Source of the DNA: a virus
IMG/VR virus record: IMGVR_UViG_3300034190_001140
Coordinates: 1 to 24,159 of that record
Length of the DNA: 24,159 nt
Direction: 5' to 3' (one strand)
The position numbers and the translations under genes were made by a program. This document shows, one piece after another, positions 14,973-23,146 of this stretch; position 1 is the first letter of the stretch, and every line of letters starts with the position of its first letter. Below the pieces are notes generated by a model. The model was not told where the DNA came from and searched no databases. It was given only the letters and a program-made list of their open reading frames with translations.

Positions 14973-16011
14973 AATCAAATGCCTCCGTGTATAAACTTTT
15001 CATCAAGTTTTTTAATCTACCTTTATCTAAGGTAGTATCTGTTTGTTCTATATAGGTGTCCAGTAAAGTAGGTGTATCTTCACTTTGTTCCACTATATCG
15101 TCTGCCACACTCGTAGCGTCTAAGTCTGAATAGTCTTCTATTATCTTTAAGTCATAAGGTTTGGCCTTTTGATAGATGTTATCAACAAACTTATCAAACA
15201 TAAAGTAATCTGTTTTCTTTTCTACAATGAGTTTAATATATTTATGATTGCATGTATCATAATCAAAATTTGCATAGTTCGTTGTTTCATCATTGTAATA
15301 TATTTTAGAATGTATTGTCAAAGGGTTTCTTATGGCTTCTATTTCTCTTGTTTCTGTGTCCAGTACATGAAAGTGTTTAGGACAATTGTAATCTGACCAA
15401 GTCATTTCATATTGACTACCCAAATAGTATATATGGCCGTTGTCACTCTTTTTGTGAAAGTGACCAGATAATACTTTTTCATATCTACTGAATAATGATT
15501 GTTCTAAACCTGTATCACTTATATGACCATTGTGCATTTCAAAACCTTTGATTTCTAAATGACCTAGTACCATGTCAGCACTTTCTTGTTCTAACATCAT
15601 CTTCGTTTTATCATAGTTTTCAGGTGTTACCCAAGGTATCATTAACATGTTCATATCATCTATTGTCACCTTTGTTGGTTGACTATACACATGGTATTGA
15701 CTTAACAATTCTTGTGGTGCATTGACATTGTTTGTGTTCTTATAATAGGTGTCATGGTTACCTACAATGATATGTACATTATAGTCGTTTAATCTTTTGA
15801 CTATTCTTTCATTAAAATCTTGTAGTGTTTTAAAATTCACATACTTACGTCTATCTAACACGTCACCTAAATGTATGATTGTATCTATATTGTTTTGTTC
15901 TATATAAGGAAAAAACTGTTCTTCCCAAAACTTGTAGATATACTCATGGTAATTAGGATTATCATTTCTACAACCTAAATGGGTGTCGTTAATCAAGGCA
16001 ATTTTACCCAT
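14965..16011 (-). CDS. gp47: Recombination endonuclease subunit gp47 (Mre11/SbcD-like)
   Basis: A 348-residue calcineurin-like phosphoesterase, the nuclease partner of gp46. All metal-binding motifs are visible: NDTHLG (8-13), GDVLDRR (49-55), GNHD (84-87), GHLE (150-153) and GHFH (183-186). The length matches T4 gp47 (339). The ATG at 16011 has AAGGAG about 8 nt upstream and overlaps the halogenase stop by 8 nt. The C-terminal 80 residues are acidic with little motif content and would contact gp46. The complex acts on double-strand ends and feeds UvsX/UvsY-driven strand invasion. Confidence 0.96.
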   Translation of the reverse strand: MGKIALINDTHLGCRNDNPNYHEYIYKFWEEQFFPYIEQNNIDTIIHLGDVLDRRKYVNFKTLQDFNERIVKRLNDYNVHIIVGNHDTYYKNTNNVNAPQELLSQYHVYSQPTKVTIDDMNMLMIPWVTPENYDKTKMMLEQESADMVLGHLEIKGFEMHNGHISDTGLEQSLFSRYEKVLSGHFHKKSDNGHIYYLGSQYEMTWSDYNCPKHFHVLDTETREIEAIRNPLTIHSKIYYNDETTNYANFDYDTCNHKYIKLIVEKKTDYFMFDKFVDNIYQKAKPYDLKIIEDYSDLDATSVADDIVEQSEDTPTLLDTYIEQTDTTLDKGRLKNLMKSLYTEAFDYE

Positions 16012-17485
16012 GTATATTCTCCTTTAAAAATTTATATAATGTAAGTTCTTTTTTGGCATTATTTTTCCATCTATTCTTATTTGTATCAAATGTTGCCACA
16101 TATTTTTCATCTATTATATCTGTGTCTAGTTCATATTGTTTTGTTAATATATCTGTCATAGAGATAGGATCATAATTCATACCTGTGGCAATATAATGCA
16201 TACCACCATCTATTGTAAAATAATGGTCAATGTGTTTTACTTTCATTACTTTTTGCACTAGTTCTAACTCCGCAATACTTCTTTCTCTTACATCACGCCA
16301 ATATTGTGTATCGTCTCTATGTGATAAAGAATAATGCATCGCCACAAAGGCAACAAAGTTATCAAATATATCATTACATTCTAAATTGTGTGTATCTTTA
16401 TCAAACTGTGATACTTTGCCTCGTTCTAAATTCTTTACAAGTTTTAATAAAAATACATGTGTTTGAAGGAGACCTGTACTTTCTAAAGGTTCAATAAAAC
16501 CTGCAGCCAGTCCTATAGAGCATACATTCTTTTTCCACATATGTTTATGTCTACCTACTCTCATACCTGTTTTTTTATAATTTACATTCTTTGGTTTTCC
16601 CAAATAGTTATGAAAGTCTTCTAACGCTTGGTCATCATCAATATACTTACTTGAATAAACATAACCAGTACCAATCTTTTGCCATTGAGGTATATTCCAT
16701 ACCCAACCGTTTTCTATAGCGGTACAATTTGTATATGGTTCTAATTGTTTTTCTTTATCTGTATATTCTAATTTTGTTGACCATGCACTATCATTTGGTA
16801 AAATATGGTTCATGTGAATAAACTTACTATTTACTTCTTTCATTAACAAAGATTTAAAGCCTGTGCAATCTAAGTATAGGTCGGCAGTATGTTTATCGTT
16901 CAATGATATAATACCATGTTCATTTGTTTCTACGGTGTTTATATGTTCTTTTATATGTTTTACACCTCTTGGTAAACAATAATTCTCTTTTAGATATTTT
17001 GCAAAGAGTAAAGCGTCAAAATGATAAGCAGCGTCTTTGTGATAATCAAAACCATCAAAAGATTTTGCCATTTTGTTTGTATTCGCTAAGGCAATTTGTG
17101 GTGCCATACATTCAGCATAGTCAGATGTTTTACAATTCTGTAAATGTTTCTTTAAATACCATTTGTTTCGTGTATCATTAGAAATATAAGGTTCATAAGG
17201 TAAACCAAATGGGTAATGAAATTCTTCACCTTTTTTATAAAAGTCTGTAAACTTAATACTTAATTTATAGGAAGCACCTACATGAGGCATCCAGTCCTTA
17301 TCTTCTAGTTCTAAGAAAGATAACCAATCATTAATACTACCAATGGTACTTTCACCTACACCTACGGTGGGTGTATTAGGACTTTCTATTACGGTGATGT
17401 CTTTGTGAGGAAAGGCTTTGATAAGTGTTGCCGCTGACATCCAGCCTGCACTACCACCTCCTACAATTATAATCTTTTCTGTCAT
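16004..17485 (-). CDS. Flavin-dependent (tryptophan-type) halogenase
   Basis: A 493-residue FADH2-dependent halogenase. It has the FAD-binding GGGSAGW (9-15), the halogenase hallmark WVWNIP (261-266, WxWxIP), a Lys-rich ASYKLSIKF block (72-79) where the PrnA-type catalytic lysine is expected (K74 or K78), and EPLESTG (332-338) around the catalytic Glu. These enzymes make hypohalous acid at the flavin and pass it to the substrate via lysine. A related cyanophage enzyme, VirX1, has been shown to halogenate varied substrates in vitro with a preference for iodide. No flavin reductase gene is visible, so reduced flavin must come from the host. It overlaps gp55 (ATGA) and gp47 (8 nt). The natural substrate is unknown. 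Confidence 0.92.
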   Translation of the reverse strand: MTEKIIIVGGGSAGWMSAATLIKAFPHKDITVIESPNTPTVGVGESTIGSINDWLSFLELEDKDWMPHVGASYKLSIKFTDFYKKGEEFHYPFGLPYEPYISNDTRNKWYLKKHLQNCKTSDYAECMAPQIALANTNKMAKSFDGFDYHKDAAYHFDALLFAKYLKENYCLPRGVKHIKEHINTVETNEHGIISLNDKHTADLYLDCTGFKSLLMKEVNSKFIHMNHILPNDSAWSTKLEYTDKEKQLEPYTNCTAIENGWVWNIPQWQKIGTGYVYSSKYIDDDQALEDFHNYLGKPKNVNYKKTGMRVGRHKHMWKKNVCSIGLAAGFIEPLESTGLLQTHVFLLKLVKNLERGKVSQFDKDTHNLECNDIFDNFVAFVAMHYSLSHRDDTQYWRDVRERSIAELELVQKVMKVKHIDHYFTIDGGMHYIATGMNYDPISMTDILTKQYELDTDIIDEKYVATFDTNKNRWKNNAKKELTLYKFLKENIHG

Positions 17486-18039
17486 TGCATAAAGTATTCT
17501 AATTTCTTAGGTTCTTTCTTTCTTACCTTTTTCTCTTTTGGTTTTTCTGGTTCTGTTTCAATCATGTTCTTCTTTAAAAAGTCTGCATATTGATTTTGAT
17601 AATCACCATCATCACCGGCCTGTAAAACTAATTCATCTAGGCCTGATTTAAGAATAAGTTTCTGTTTGATTGTTGTTTGTTTCTTTTCTTTTTGTATTCT
17701 ACGAATAAAAGCGTAGTATATAATTTGTGTAAAGTAAGCAAAAGGATTGTTACTTTTTTCTGGATCAAAGTTTGATACATACTGTAGGCAATTCTCTATA
17801 CCATCAGATATCATATCTTCTTTGTATGTGTAGTTAATGAAGTTTGGTCTGTAAGATAGGTGATTGGCAATCTTTAAAAAACATTCACCTATGTAATCAC
17901 TTATAGGTGGTTGCCTTCTTCCTCTTTTCTCTGCAGCTAAACACTTCTTTTTGTATTCTTTCATTGCAACTAAAAAGTCCTTATTGGAAACATAATGTTC
18001 CTTTTTCTTAGGTGTTTTTAGTTTTACTGTTTCATTCAT
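17482..18039 (-). CDS. gp55: Late-transcription sigma factor gp55
   Basis: A 185-residue small sigma factor of the T4 gp55 type, which directs host RNA polymerase to TATAAATA late promoters, several of which occur in this window. The sigma region-2-like core is YKEDMISDGIENCLQYVSNF through FAYFTQIIYYAFIRRIQKEKK. N- and C-terminal tails are Lys-rich. The ATG at 18039 has AAAGGA about 9 nt upstream and a consensus sigma70 promoter (18068-18096), so the late sigma factor is itself an early product. It overlaps the halogenase start by ATGA and heads a long operon reaching to 10863. Confidence 0.93.
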   Translation of the reverse strand: MNETVKLKTPKKKEHYVSNKDFLVAMKEYKKKCLAAEKRGRRQPPISDYIGECFLKIANHLSYRPNFINYTYKEDMISDGIENCLQYVSNFDPEKSNNPFAYFTQIIYYAFIRRIQKEKKQTTIKQKLILKSGLDELVLQAGDDGDYQNQYADFLKKNMIETEPEKPKEKKVRKKEPKKLEYFMQ

Positions 18040-18123: not shown

Positions 18124-18152
18124 TTGACTTTATTGGTGGGTTAGTATATAAT
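18124..18152 (+). promoter_or_regulatory. Plus-strand sigma70-type promoter, opposite to all genes
   Basis: TTGACT (18124-18129), a 17-nt spacer and a perfect TATAAT (18147-18152). It is preceded by AAGGC, so it shares the GGCTTGAC core of the minus-strand promoters at 929, 3970 and 10857. Transcription would start near 18159 and run antisense to the Sm-like gene (stop at 18186). No plus-strand ORF of note follows. The rest of 18040-18185 holds the gp55 promoter and no gene. Confidence 0.65.
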
Positions 18153-18185
18153 AGGCGGTGTCCCTCCTTCAGATACAGGTATAGC

Positions 18186-18647
18186 TTAGTGTACTGTCTT
18201 CTTACCTTTTAGATGTTCAATCACATCAAAGTAGTCCTCATCACCAAGTTTATCAAGTAATCTGTTAAACTCGTCCTCACTAGGCATGGGTTTTAGTTTC
18301 TCCTGTGCAGGAATCTTTATATTCCCTAAACGTATATTATTATAGTAATCATTGATTTCTTTATTTGGCATGGCGATAGTCATTATATTATTTTTATGTA
18401 TAGAGAAGATTTTATCACTGGATTGCCACACCCAAGGTTTCATTGACATTCTTTCTTCCATATAGTATTGTGTAGGATCCATATCTAAATTATGTAATTC
18501 TATTTTATAAGGGTCAGATAAGCGTATAAAATCACTACCTTCCTGTACATACATGATACAGATAACCTGTTCACCTGTTGATAATTTTAACATTCTAGGT
18601 GTAGGTATTGTAACTGTCTTTGTTTTTATTTCTTTTTTATCTGTCAT
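18186..18647 (-). CDS. Putative Sm-like (LSm-type) small protein
   Basis: A 153-residue protein whose first part, MLKLSTGEQVICIMYV then FIRLSDPYKIELH (about 19-52), followed by MKPWVWQSSDKIFSIHKNNIMTI (about 69-91, in pieces), has the strand pattern of an Sm/LSm fold: a conserved L-x-(S/T)-G-E start, a five-strand spacing, and a final I-x-I strand. Similar proteins are common in marine T4-like phages. If correct it may bind RNA as a ring like Hfq, but no RNA-binding residue can be assigned by eye. The C-terminal 50 residues are acidic and probably helical. It overlaps uvsW by ATGA and ends the uvsY-uvsW series. A plus-strand promoter faces into its 3' end. Confidence 0.55.
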   Translation of the reverse strand: MTDKKEIKTKTVTIPTPRMLKLSTGEQVICIMYVQEGSDFIRLSDPYKIELHNLDMDPTQYYMEERMSMKPWVWQSSDKIFSIHKNNIMTIAMPNKEINDYYNNIRLGNIKIPAQEKLKPMPSEDEFNRLLDKLGDEDYFDVIEHLKGKKTVH

Positions 18648-20113
18648 ATAAGGTCCACATTAAAGATTTCATAGTCAAACTCTTGCTCACTATAGATATT
18701 TATCCTTTCTAGGAAATGGTTCATAGTAAAGTTCTTATAACTCTTATAGGTAAAATCATCAGATATATCATACAGCGTAGCAACGTCTTTATTACCACCA
18801 AGACGAAGACCCCTACCAATAGACTGGAGATTGCGAATTTTAGATTTAGAAGGACTAGCAAAAACAATGTTATGTAAATTGCGGATGTTAATACCGGTAC
18901 TGAACGTACCGTAGCTTGCAACGATAATAGCATTGTTCTCATTTTCTGTTATACTCCTGACTGTCTCTCTATCTTTTGTATCTGTACCACCATAAACAAA
19001 AAAGAGTTTTCGTGTGTGTGGGTCAATAGTATCACCAATCATTTGATGTAATATCTTACCATGTTTCTCTACATACTGAAATAATACCAAAGTATTACCA
19101 GTTTGTTTTTTTACTAAGTTACGAATAAACTTGTTTCTCTTTTCATGTGAAACTATAAAATCCATTTCTTCCTGGTACTTTAGACCTTTGACTTGAATAC
19201 AATCCTCTTTAGGATACTTCAACACAATACATTGTATCTTTAGGTCAGCAAGTTGTTTCCTGTCTATCAGCTCTCGTGTTGTCGTAACATGATGTACGGT
19301 GCCAAATAGACCTTCAAGTACAAGCTTGTGTGTCTTTGAATCATCTAAAGTACCAGTGGTACCTATTCTATATTTAGCGTTTATTAAAGCACCTAATATT
19401 TTCTGTAACTCTTTAGACTTAAATAAATGTGCTTCATCACCTATGACACAACCAAATTGGTCAAAGTATTTCTTATCAAAGGTGGCCAGTGATTGCCATG
19501 TAGAGACAACAACAGGTTTGCTTTCATCAATCTCATAACCATAATACTTTCGTTGTACATACTTCTCAGCGTCCCAACCATAATCAATAAAGTCTTTGTA
19601 CATTTGTTCTACCAAAGATGTGGTAGGTACAATTAATAAACACCTGTGACCTAAAACTTTCATCATTCTTATAATACAATAGATGATTAATGACTTACCT
19701 GAGGCAGTAGGTGATAGAAGTATTGTCTTTTTATTGTTCAATGCATGGGTCACCGCATTTAACTGATAATCTCTTATCTCTATGTCTTTTAACGATAATT
19801 TGTCTATAAACTTGGAAACATCATTGGTAGGAACGCCACCACCAATGGTTAAGGACTCGTCTAGTATGATTGTATGGCTGTTTTCCTTGCAAAAATGCTG
19901 TATATAAGGTAACAGTCCAGCATAAATTTTTCCTGTCGCCTTTGAAAAAAGACGTACTTTGCCGTCCCATCTTTTGGCACGGACTGATGGCATAAAACTG
20001 GCACCTGGTACAGGAAACGTAAAGAAGTCAGATAGAGACTGTAAGAGTCCTAAATCTTCACTTGTACATTTAATGTACGCTTCGTTAAATTTCGTTACGG
20101 CTAATTCGCTCAT
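18644..20113 (-). CDS. uvsW: UvsW RNA-DNA/recombination helicase
   Basis: A 489-residue superfamily 2 helicase close to T4 UvsW (about 500). Motifs are Walker A SPTASGKS (134-141), DEAH (226-229), TTGTL motif III-like (252-256) and motif VI QSIGRGLR (430-437). The N-terminal 100 residues form the UvsW DNA-binding domain (RAKRWDGKVRLF block). UvsW unwinds R-loops and branched intermediates, ending origin-dependent replication in favour of recombination-dependent initiation. The ATG at 20113 overlaps the upstream gene by 29 nt and the stop overlaps the Sm-like gene by 4 nt. Confidence 0.95.
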   Translation of the reverse strand: MSELAVTKFNEAYIKCTSEDLGLLQSLSDFFTFPVPGASFMPSVRAKRWDGKVRLFSKATGKIYAGLLPYIQHFCKENSHTIILDESLTIGGGVPTNDVSKFIDKLSLKDIEIRDYQLNAVTHALNNKKTILLSPTASGKSLIIYCIIRMMKVLGHRCLLIVPTTSLVEQMYKDFIDYGWDAEKYVQRKYYGYEIDESKPVVVSTWQSLATFDKKYFDQFGCVIGDEAHLFKSKELQKILGALINAKYRIGTTGTLDDSKTHKLVLEGLFGTVHHVTTTRELIDRKQLADLKIQCIVLKYPKEDCIQVKGLKYQEEMDFIVSHEKRNKFIRNLVKKQTGNTLVLFQYVEKHGKILHQMIGDTIDPHTRKLFFVYGGTDTKDRETVRSITENENNAIIVASYGTFSTGINIRNLHNIVFASPSKSKIRNLQSIGRGLRLGGNKDVATLYDISDDFTYKSYKNFTMNHFLERINIYSEQEFDYEIFNVDLI

Positions 20114-21943: not shown

Positions 21944-21951
21944 TATTTATA
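21944..21951 (-). promoter_or_regulatory. Late promoter box immediately before the tail-tube-fold gene
   Basis: A perfect TATAAATA on the minus strand ends 5 nt before the ATG. With T4 late spacing (box at -13 to -6), +1 would be the A of the ATG, a leaderless message. Its first base is shared with the hairpin arm at 21951. Confidence 0.65.
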
Positions 21952-21971
21952 AGGCGCCGTGAAGGCGCCTT
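21951..21971 (-). terminator. Hairpin after the BMP-family gene
   Basis: AAGGCGCC and GGCGCCTT pair perfectly over 8 bp with a 5-nt loop, 7 nt after the BMP-family stop. In the minus direction there is only TT within the stem and then the late box. In the plus direction TTTT follows, so it could also stop antisense transcription. Confidence 0.65.
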
Positions 21972-21978
21972 TTGTTAA

Positions 21979-23043
21979 TTATTGTGGTAGTTGTCCGTCT
22001 ATACCTTTTACGTACCAGTTCATGCCTAGTAACATACCGTCAGGTGCAACTTCACCTTCTGGCACCATTAGTTCGCCTGCCTGATTGTAAATAGGTCCTT
22101 CAAAGGAATGCATTTTACCATCTCTTAAAGAGTTCTCTATGGCAATCGCCTCATACTTTGTGTCTGGATGCATGTTGTTATATTGTGCCATTTGTACCAT
22201 GCCACTATCTAAACCTTTCCATGTATCAGTAGATTCCCATGTACCATCTGCTAGCGCTTTCGCTCTGGCAACATAGTAAGGTCCCCACTCATCAATGATT
22301 GCGGTTAGATGTGCCTCTGGACAAAACTTATATTGGTCACTTGCCTGACCAAATGCCTTAACACCATTCTCCTGTGCCACTCTACATGGTGCATATGTAT
22401 CAGTATGTTGTACTATAATATCTGCACCTTGATTGATTAACGTAGCCGCACTATCTGCCTCTTTTGCCGGGTCGTACCAAGTATATGCCCAAATAATTTT
22501 TAATTTAATATCTGGATTTACTTTAGAAGCTGCAAGATAAAATGCATTGATACCTCTGACAACTTCAGGTATTGGGAAACTGGCAATATAACCTATCACA
22601 CCAGTTTTACTTTCTTTAGCGGCAATATGTCCCTCAATAGTTCTACCTTCATAGAACCTTGATGAATATGTTGAAACATTGTCTAGTCTTTTGTAACCAG
22701 TTGCATGTTCAAACTTTATATCTGGGTATTGTTCTGCCACTTCTAAAGTTTGGTCCATGTAATTGAAAGATGTTGTAAATATCAAATCATGTCCAGAAGC
22801 TGCTAATTTTTGTATTGCTCTAGTAGCATCAGCGTTTTCTGGTACGTTTTCAATGTATGTGGTTTCAAAACCTAACTCAATTTCAATGTCTTGTCTACCT
22901 TGGTCGTGCATATAAGTCCAGCCGTGGTCGCCTGGAGGACCAATGTAGATGAAACCAATTTTAGGGTCTTTTGCTTGTGTAGTTGTAGATAATAAAATCA
23001 TGCCTGATACTACAATCAGGAATGAAGTCAGTTTTTTAAACAT
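21979..23043 (-). CDS. BMP-family (PnrA/Med-like) periplasmic substrate-binding protein
   Basis: A 354-residue secreted solute-binding protein of the basic-membrane-protein family, whose members feed ABC importers with purine nucleosides or related compounds. A signal peptide spans 1-24 (KK, then a hydrophobic core, ending in TQA). There is no lipobox Cys at that site, so a soluble periplasmic protein is expected. The mature part opens with KIGFIYIGPPGDHGWTYMHDQG, the family's first ligand-binding loop, and continues with ADIIVQHTDTYAPC and VKAFGQASDQYKFC, typical of type 1 periplasmic folds; the two Cys may pair. GGAG lies 5 nt before the ATG. It sits alone between two hairpins in the late structural region. 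No permease or ATPase is present, so it would serve the host importer. Confidence 0.92.
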   Translation of the reverse strand: MFKKLTSFLIVVSGMILLSTTTQAKDPKIGFIYIGPPGDHGWTYMHDQGRQDIEIELGFETTYIENVPENADATRAIQKLAASGHDLIFTTSFNYMDQTLEVAEQYPDIKFEHATGYKRLDNVSTYSSRFYEGRTIEGHIAAKESKTGVIGYIASFPIPEVVRGINAFYLAASKVNPDIKLKIIWAYTWYDPAKEADSAATLINQGADIIVQHTDTYAPCRVAQENGVKAFGQASDQYKFCPEAHLTAIIDEWGPYYVARAKALADGTWESTDTWKGLDSGMVQMAQYNNMHPDTKYEAIAIENSLRDGKMHSFEGPIYNQAGELMVPEGEVAPDGMLLGMNWYVKGIDGQLPQ

Positions 23044-23118: not shown

Positions 23119-23146
23119 AAAAAAAAGGGCGCCAAAAGCGCCCTTT
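23119..23146 (-). terminator. Rho-independent terminator after gp23
   Basis: AAAGGGCGC and GCGCCCTTT form a 9-bp perfect stem with a 5-nt loop, followed by an uninterrupted run that totals eight T on the minus strand. It starts 23 nt after the gp23 stop. It is the strongest terminator in the window. Confidence 0.92.

Follow-up and report, generated by a model that had tools for sequence, protein, structure and literature searches.

Nearly all of the genomes compared here carry a putative antisense promoter of the host sigma70 type at the 3' end of the uvsY-uvsW-sm unit of Kyanoviridae, the marine T4-like phages. The comparison places this promoter at a fixed position behind the stop codon of the Sm-like gene (sm), with an invariant TGT at the expected transcription start and a covarying inverted repeat around it. 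From sequence comparison we tentatively propose that the promoter represses sm and uvsW in cis. The window (the whole stretch of 24,159 nucleotides that was analysed) is a 24-kb fragment of an HTVC008M-like T4-type pelagiphage in which gp55, the Sm-like gene, uvsW and uvsY were recognised by profile. The features of the locus are listed in Table 1.

Table 1. Coordinates of the antisense promoter, its start-site repeat and the neighbouring genes in the window.
Feature	Position	Strand	Remarks
-35 hexamer of the antisense promoter, TTGACT	18124..18129	+	1.9-2.0 bits at each of the first five positions (124 clustered relatives)
-10 hexamer, TATAAT	18147..18152	+	Preceded by a 17-nt spacer; kept in relatives
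5' arm of the start-site inverted repeat, AGGCGG	18153..18158	+	Directly after the -10; arms covary among relatives
Invariant TGT	18159..18161	+	Transcription predicted to start at its G (18160)
3' arm of the inverted repeat, CCCTCCTT	18162..18169	+	Includes CCTCCTT; covariation
Predicted antisense RNA	18160..18647	+	At least across the Sm-like gene; predicted from the promoter
gp55 late sigma factor gene	17482..18039	-	Own sense promoter at 18096-18068, minus strand
Sm-like gene (PF16243-like; PHROG 471 'methylamine utilization')	18186..18647	-	Element travels with this gene
uvsW-like helicase gene	18644..20113	-	Next gene for the antisense transcript; HTVC008M homologue annotated UvsW

The antisense promoter lies 34 nt beyond the stop codon of the Sm-like gene, in the uvsW operon, and upstream of gp55. 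The original prediction of a plus-strand TTGACT-17-TATAAT promoter was borne out at 18124-18152. Its hexamers are of the sigma70 type (TTGACA- and TATAAT-like, 16-18 nt apart), and the G of the TGT, the predicted start, is position 7-8 after the -10, a sigma70 start purine being expected at about 7 nt. Exact matches to TTGAC-N17/19-TATAAT numbered two in the window, with 0.18 expected from shuffles of the window; the second, at 929-957 on the minus strand, is oriented in the sense of the genes. The core said to be common with the minus-strand promoters was likewise recovered, GCTTGAC having three copies on the minus strand and one at the antisense promoter. The promoter faces into sm and uvsW, the layout of a cis-antisense RNA overlapping the gene opposite, and its predicted RNA opposes the 3' end of the Sm-like gene, as had been claimed. 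Opposite sm and uvsW, no plus-strand gene was recognised.

Homologous loci were gathered by gp55 and Sm-like similarity, independently of the promoter, with some added through promoter patterns. Altogether, these formed 182 distinct homologous intergenic junctions from pelagiphages and cyanophages. The best plus-strand site scored at least 10/12 in 180 of the 182 junctions and 12/12 in 54. Shuffled junctions reached at least 10/12 in 96 of 910 trials (~10%) and 12/12 once. The pattern TTGAC(A/T)-16/17-TAnAAT was kept at the same place in about 178 of the 182 junctions; this number is used rather than 180 because the best-scoring sites in some junctions, among them L310, L344 and L393, are spurious, and in these three the true element was seen by eye a few bases from the best-scoring site. 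Whether the -35/-10 pair is lost in relatives had been named in advance as the refuting test, and the promoter was strongly retained.

The element was visible, strong or weakened, in all 14 named genomes (12 cyanophages, Mosig and Melnitz). These included: Syn9, P-SSM2, P-SSM4, S-SM2 and Mosig. The hexamers were weakened in S. phage MA01, ACG-2014f and Melnitz. HTVC008M is about 70% identical to the window over the promoter region and has GCTTGACA-17-TATAATAGGCATGTGCCTCCTTCAGAG in the corresponding position; its 147-kb genome contains five perfect 12/12 sites, of which this is one. Two more of the perfect 12/12 promoters of HTVC008M, at 19462 and 23571 (minus strand), oppose plus-strand tail/baseplate genes.

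Information content across the 124 clustered relatives was confined to TTGACA, TA-AAT and TGT, with nearly all other positions at about 0 bits; the invariant parts of the element are thus only the -35, the -10 and the TGT at the expected +1. The TGT carried about 2 bits per position in the same set. Of 178 elements, 173 have the TGT at a distance of 5-6 nt from the -10, and the other five have TGC. The combined pattern of promoter and hairpin occurred once outside these junctions in the 2.8 Mb of DNA searched, and the other seven listed exceptions were located at the end of the same Sm-like gene. A distant relative (L213, ~5680) has a plus-strand TTGACT-TATAAT adjoining gp55, followed by CCTCCTT, without the inverted repeat.

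Genes are inserted between sm and gp55 in the junctions L040, L043, L089, L164 and L182. The element lies 38-45 nt behind the sm stop codon in those insertion phages that were measured, and gp55 keeps its own promoter. In L032, where gp55 has no adjoining sm gene, the element is absent beside gp55. The element thus belongs with the end of the uvsW-sm unit rather than with gp55, since it stays with sm in the insertion phages. A general divergent partner of the gp55 promoter was rejected, since the two come apart where genes have been inserted. The -35 of many cyanophages makes a palindrome, TTGACAAnnTTGTCAA, that it shares with the gp55 promoter, and in these phages the two promoters may compete. 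In HTVC008M the endonuclease V-uvsY-uvsW-sm block is preceded by an 11/12 sense promoter (position 76441).

Other features of the neighbourhood were also recorded. A minus-strand micro-ORF, AAGGAGGCACATG, of the HTVC008M clade was rejected: the window clade and L180 have lost its start codon, and it is truncated in L238, with the promoter kept in each case. Small hypothetical ORFs annotated over the junction in L002 (3551-3661), L003 (3343-3438) and L306 (1359-1469), from Mosig, Melnitz and ACG-2014a, are likely to be spurious. A tryptophan-halogenase-like gene (PHROG 2928) at 16004-17485 (minus strand) immediately follows gp55 in the direction of the genes.

The general layout of the start site is the -10, then 5-6 nt, TGT, and a stretch complementary to the first arm. 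Examples include: AACGG-TGT-CCGTT, AGGCA-TGT-GCCT, GGTCTA-TGT-AGACC, AGGGG-TGT-TCCCC, CCGGTA-TGT-CCGG and AACTC-TGT-AAGGGTT. The hairpin of the window is imperfect (AGG-C-GG with CC-T-CCT around TGTC), pairing 18153-18155 with 18166-18168 and 18157-18158 with 18163-18164 around one C/T mismatch. Among 102 distinct arm pairs the mean number of uninterrupted Watson-Crick pairs was 3.43, compared with 2.28 +- 0.10 when the 3' arms were redistributed among loci, a control that does not model the tree. The folding energy of the arms had a z of about -12.8, and control windows in the spacer and downstream gave about -0.7. Thinning to Sm-like identities below 60, 50, 45 and 40% left z at -10.9, -9.8, -8.3 and -7.5, the last from 27 loci, which makes inheritance unlikely as the sole cause of the complementarity. 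Compensatory changes that keep pairing, as expected of a structured nucleic-acid element, were found with relatedness only partly controlled. As the bases flanking the TGT vary freely yet stay complementary, the start-site hairpin appears to be under selection. Direct repeats in the arms were not above shuffles.

The inverted repeat is locked in register to the -10. As the TGT lies where +1 is expected, the RNA should begin downstream of the 5' arm, which favours a structure in the opened DNA rather than in the antisense RNA. The plus strand was the more stable in 79% of cases, with 69 +- 5% expected from composition. A plus-specific fold arising from G-T versus A-C pairs was rejected, as composition explained most of the preference in the re-dealt control.

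The proposed mechanism of cis repression is as follows. Host RNA polymerase would start at the G of the TGT while sigma70 promoters are active, and the antisense transcript would oppose first sm and then uvsW. Expression of sm-uvsW would then be kept down until late infection, either by antisense pairing or through collision of polymerases. An antisense promoter of such strength at the far end would allow uvsY to be made and keep uvsW and sm back. Cis repression appears to fit the position, orientation, strength and linkage of the promoter. In T4, UvsW is expressed late, from a late promoter of its own, and acts by unwinding the R-loops of origins (PMC3016281); it is late because it destroys these R-loops, and the late sm-uvsW expression proposed here would match that timing. 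Cyanomyoviruses are without alt, mod, motA and asiA (PMC2984593). In the absence of these modifiers an unmodified host sigma70 polymerase is expected, and the promoter should fire.

The hairpin does not follow from an antisense role. If formed in the opened DNA strand, it would tune promoter escape at a near-consensus promoter; promoter escape and R-loop stabilisation are its candidate roles. A broader joint claim, which we consider unlikely as a whole, is that the locus represents a new promoter architecture, a near-consensus sigma70 promoter with its start site in the loop of a DNA hairpin that is conserved in shape but free in sequence, in which the opened-strand hairpin would control promoter escape or R-loop formation and the antisense promoter would serve as a timer of the uvsW helicase. 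Hairpins close to the start site are also part of the promoters of the N4 virion RNA polymerase, a single-subunit enzyme of the phage itself. The present element differs from these in that its -35 and -10 are host sigma70 consensus and its arms have no fixed sequence.

Alternatively, the product of the promoter could be a small RNA that acts in trans, possibly as a partner to the Sm-like protein encoded opposite, and of which only the first 10-15 nt matter. We regard this as improbable. The element does travel with the Sm-like gene rather than gp55, and mild conservation was seen immediately after the hairpin, chiefly of TT at TGT+8/+9 (124 clustered relatives). The profile of the Sm-like family also agrees with such a partner, matching PF16243 Sm_like, the solved Sm-like-type protein PDB 3by7 (E 1.6e-15) and TIP60 cage proteins; against PF16243, 34 of 62 family members matched at E <= 0.001 (best 1.3e-44). 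However, the window protein alone had no match in PDB and scored 23.4 bits with the PF16243 profile, for which the curated cut-off is 29.4. The family is labelled 'methylamine utilization' in many phage records, a metabolic name that, from the profile matches, looks misleading.

The RNA itself also argues against a trans-acting role, for which an intrinsic terminator and a conserved body would be expected. Relatives had no conserved RNA body or structure downstream of about +12, and no conserved terminator was found for the antisense RNA, including in HTVC008M and Syn9. The stem-loop at 18173-18195 that had been suggested to end the RNA did not hold up: the folded RNA was no more stable than shuffles (z about 0), no plus-strand terminator was found there in the scan, and the ACAG...CTGT hairpin is missing in relatives such as HTVC008M. 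Extra synonymous constraint was not found at the sm 3' end, though a cis antisense RNA would not need it. Rfam gave no family at gathering score for the antisense RNA; a weak match to SNORD127 (E 0.04) was put down to chance, and no tRNA was found.

Farther along the plus strand, an exact late-promoter motif, TATAAATA, at 21944-21951 (minus strand) abuts a GC-rich inverted repeat at 21951-21971, with a T-run next to it on the plus strand. This repeat could stop a long antisense transcript from 18160; no equivalent was evident in HTVC008M or Syn9. A strong GC-rich stem with a T-run, usable as a terminator, lies at 23124-23146, upstream of the gene at 21979-23043 and just after the major capsid gene.

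An R-loop replication origin, a marine counterpart of T4 oriF/oriG, is equally improbable in our estimate. Here the RNA would prime replication and a hairpin in the non-template strand would stabilise or mark the R-loop. The T4 origins consist of a MotA-dependent promoter, whose transcript forms an R-loop, and a required A+T-rich unwinding element downstream (PMC3016281). The present element shares with them a promoter-driven RNA in a replication/recombination neighbourhood and the logic of the R-loop. Its repeat lies on both sides of the start, in a stretch where the non-template strand is single-stranded, and there is one element per junction, nearly universal in the set. It differs in having a consensus sigma70 promoter and an inverted repeat, with no A+T-rich stretch downstream (67-68% AT near the start versus 67.5% further in). 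GC skew did not change at the HTVC008M site; this counts for little, as recombination drives late replication in T4.

The pairs of the hairpin would form on the sense strand as well, and composition explains most of the strand preference. The structure could thus belong to the sense mRNA, ending or protecting the 3' end of the uvsW-sm message, with the promoter as a roadblock isolating gp55. This was judged to have only a slim chance of being correct. In L040, L043, L089 and L164 the inserted sense gene begins about 10 nt or less from the -35, leaving no room for a promoter of its own, so that sense transcription seems to read through. Furthermore, the sense strand has no U-tract and goes on AUUAUA, and the repeat stays in register with the -10.

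Finally, the original prediction had the RNA mimic the 16S anti-Shine-Dalgarno sequence and block phage ribosome sites, a very remote prospect and, as a general function, one that the comparison refutes. In the window and HTVC008M clades the start is followed by CCTCCTT, but CCTCC was found in only 18 of 180 elements, not as a conserved unpaired CCUCC-type seed, in the window clade its CCU is part of the covarying hairpin arm, cyanophages have GGGTT or GGAGG in its place, CCTCCTT (18163-18169) is at chance frequency in the window (1 versus 1.7 expected), and only 6 of 21 listed window genes have a strong Shine-Dalgarno sequence (GGAG or GAGG). Of the phage riboregulator first envisaged, the genuine conserved antisense promoter stood, and the anti-Shine-Dalgarno role and the terminator did not.

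Phage antisense RNAs are already known as a kind. The OOP RNA of lambda is a small antisense transcript from a host promoter that begins beyond the 3' end of the opposed gene, has a defined terminator and acts on cII. The predicted transcript resembles OOP in its start beyond the opposed gene's 3' end and its host promoter; it differs in that no terminator was found and in belonging to a different phage lineage. A further precedent is CfrI of cyanophage S-PM2 (Millard et al. 2010, as described in PMC2984593): an antisense RNA in a marine T4-like phage, lying over psbA and a homing endonuclease gene and suggested to regulate the genes it overlaps. The present element differs from CfrI in its location at sm-uvsW/gp55, in its presence in nearly all of the junctions examined and in its start-site hairpin. 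Family-wide conservation and the covarying repeat around +1, both from sequence comparison, appear to set it apart from the known phage antisense RNAs. The element was not annotated in the genome records examined, and no description was found in the literature searched, which did not cover the Syn9 start-site study; that study may contain the element's 5' end.

Among the viruses of ocean cyanobacteria and SAR11, Kyanoviridae are prominent. The near-universal element suggests an unrecognised antisense switch in this major ocean virus family. A regulatory element at one site in nearly all of these phages, whose hosts belong to three bacterial groups, would count as a component of their core programme, and it gives exact, testable start sites. 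The antisense promoter would offer a route for delaying UvsW that T4 does not use. It also poses a physical question: why the pairing around the transcription start is kept and the sequence is not.
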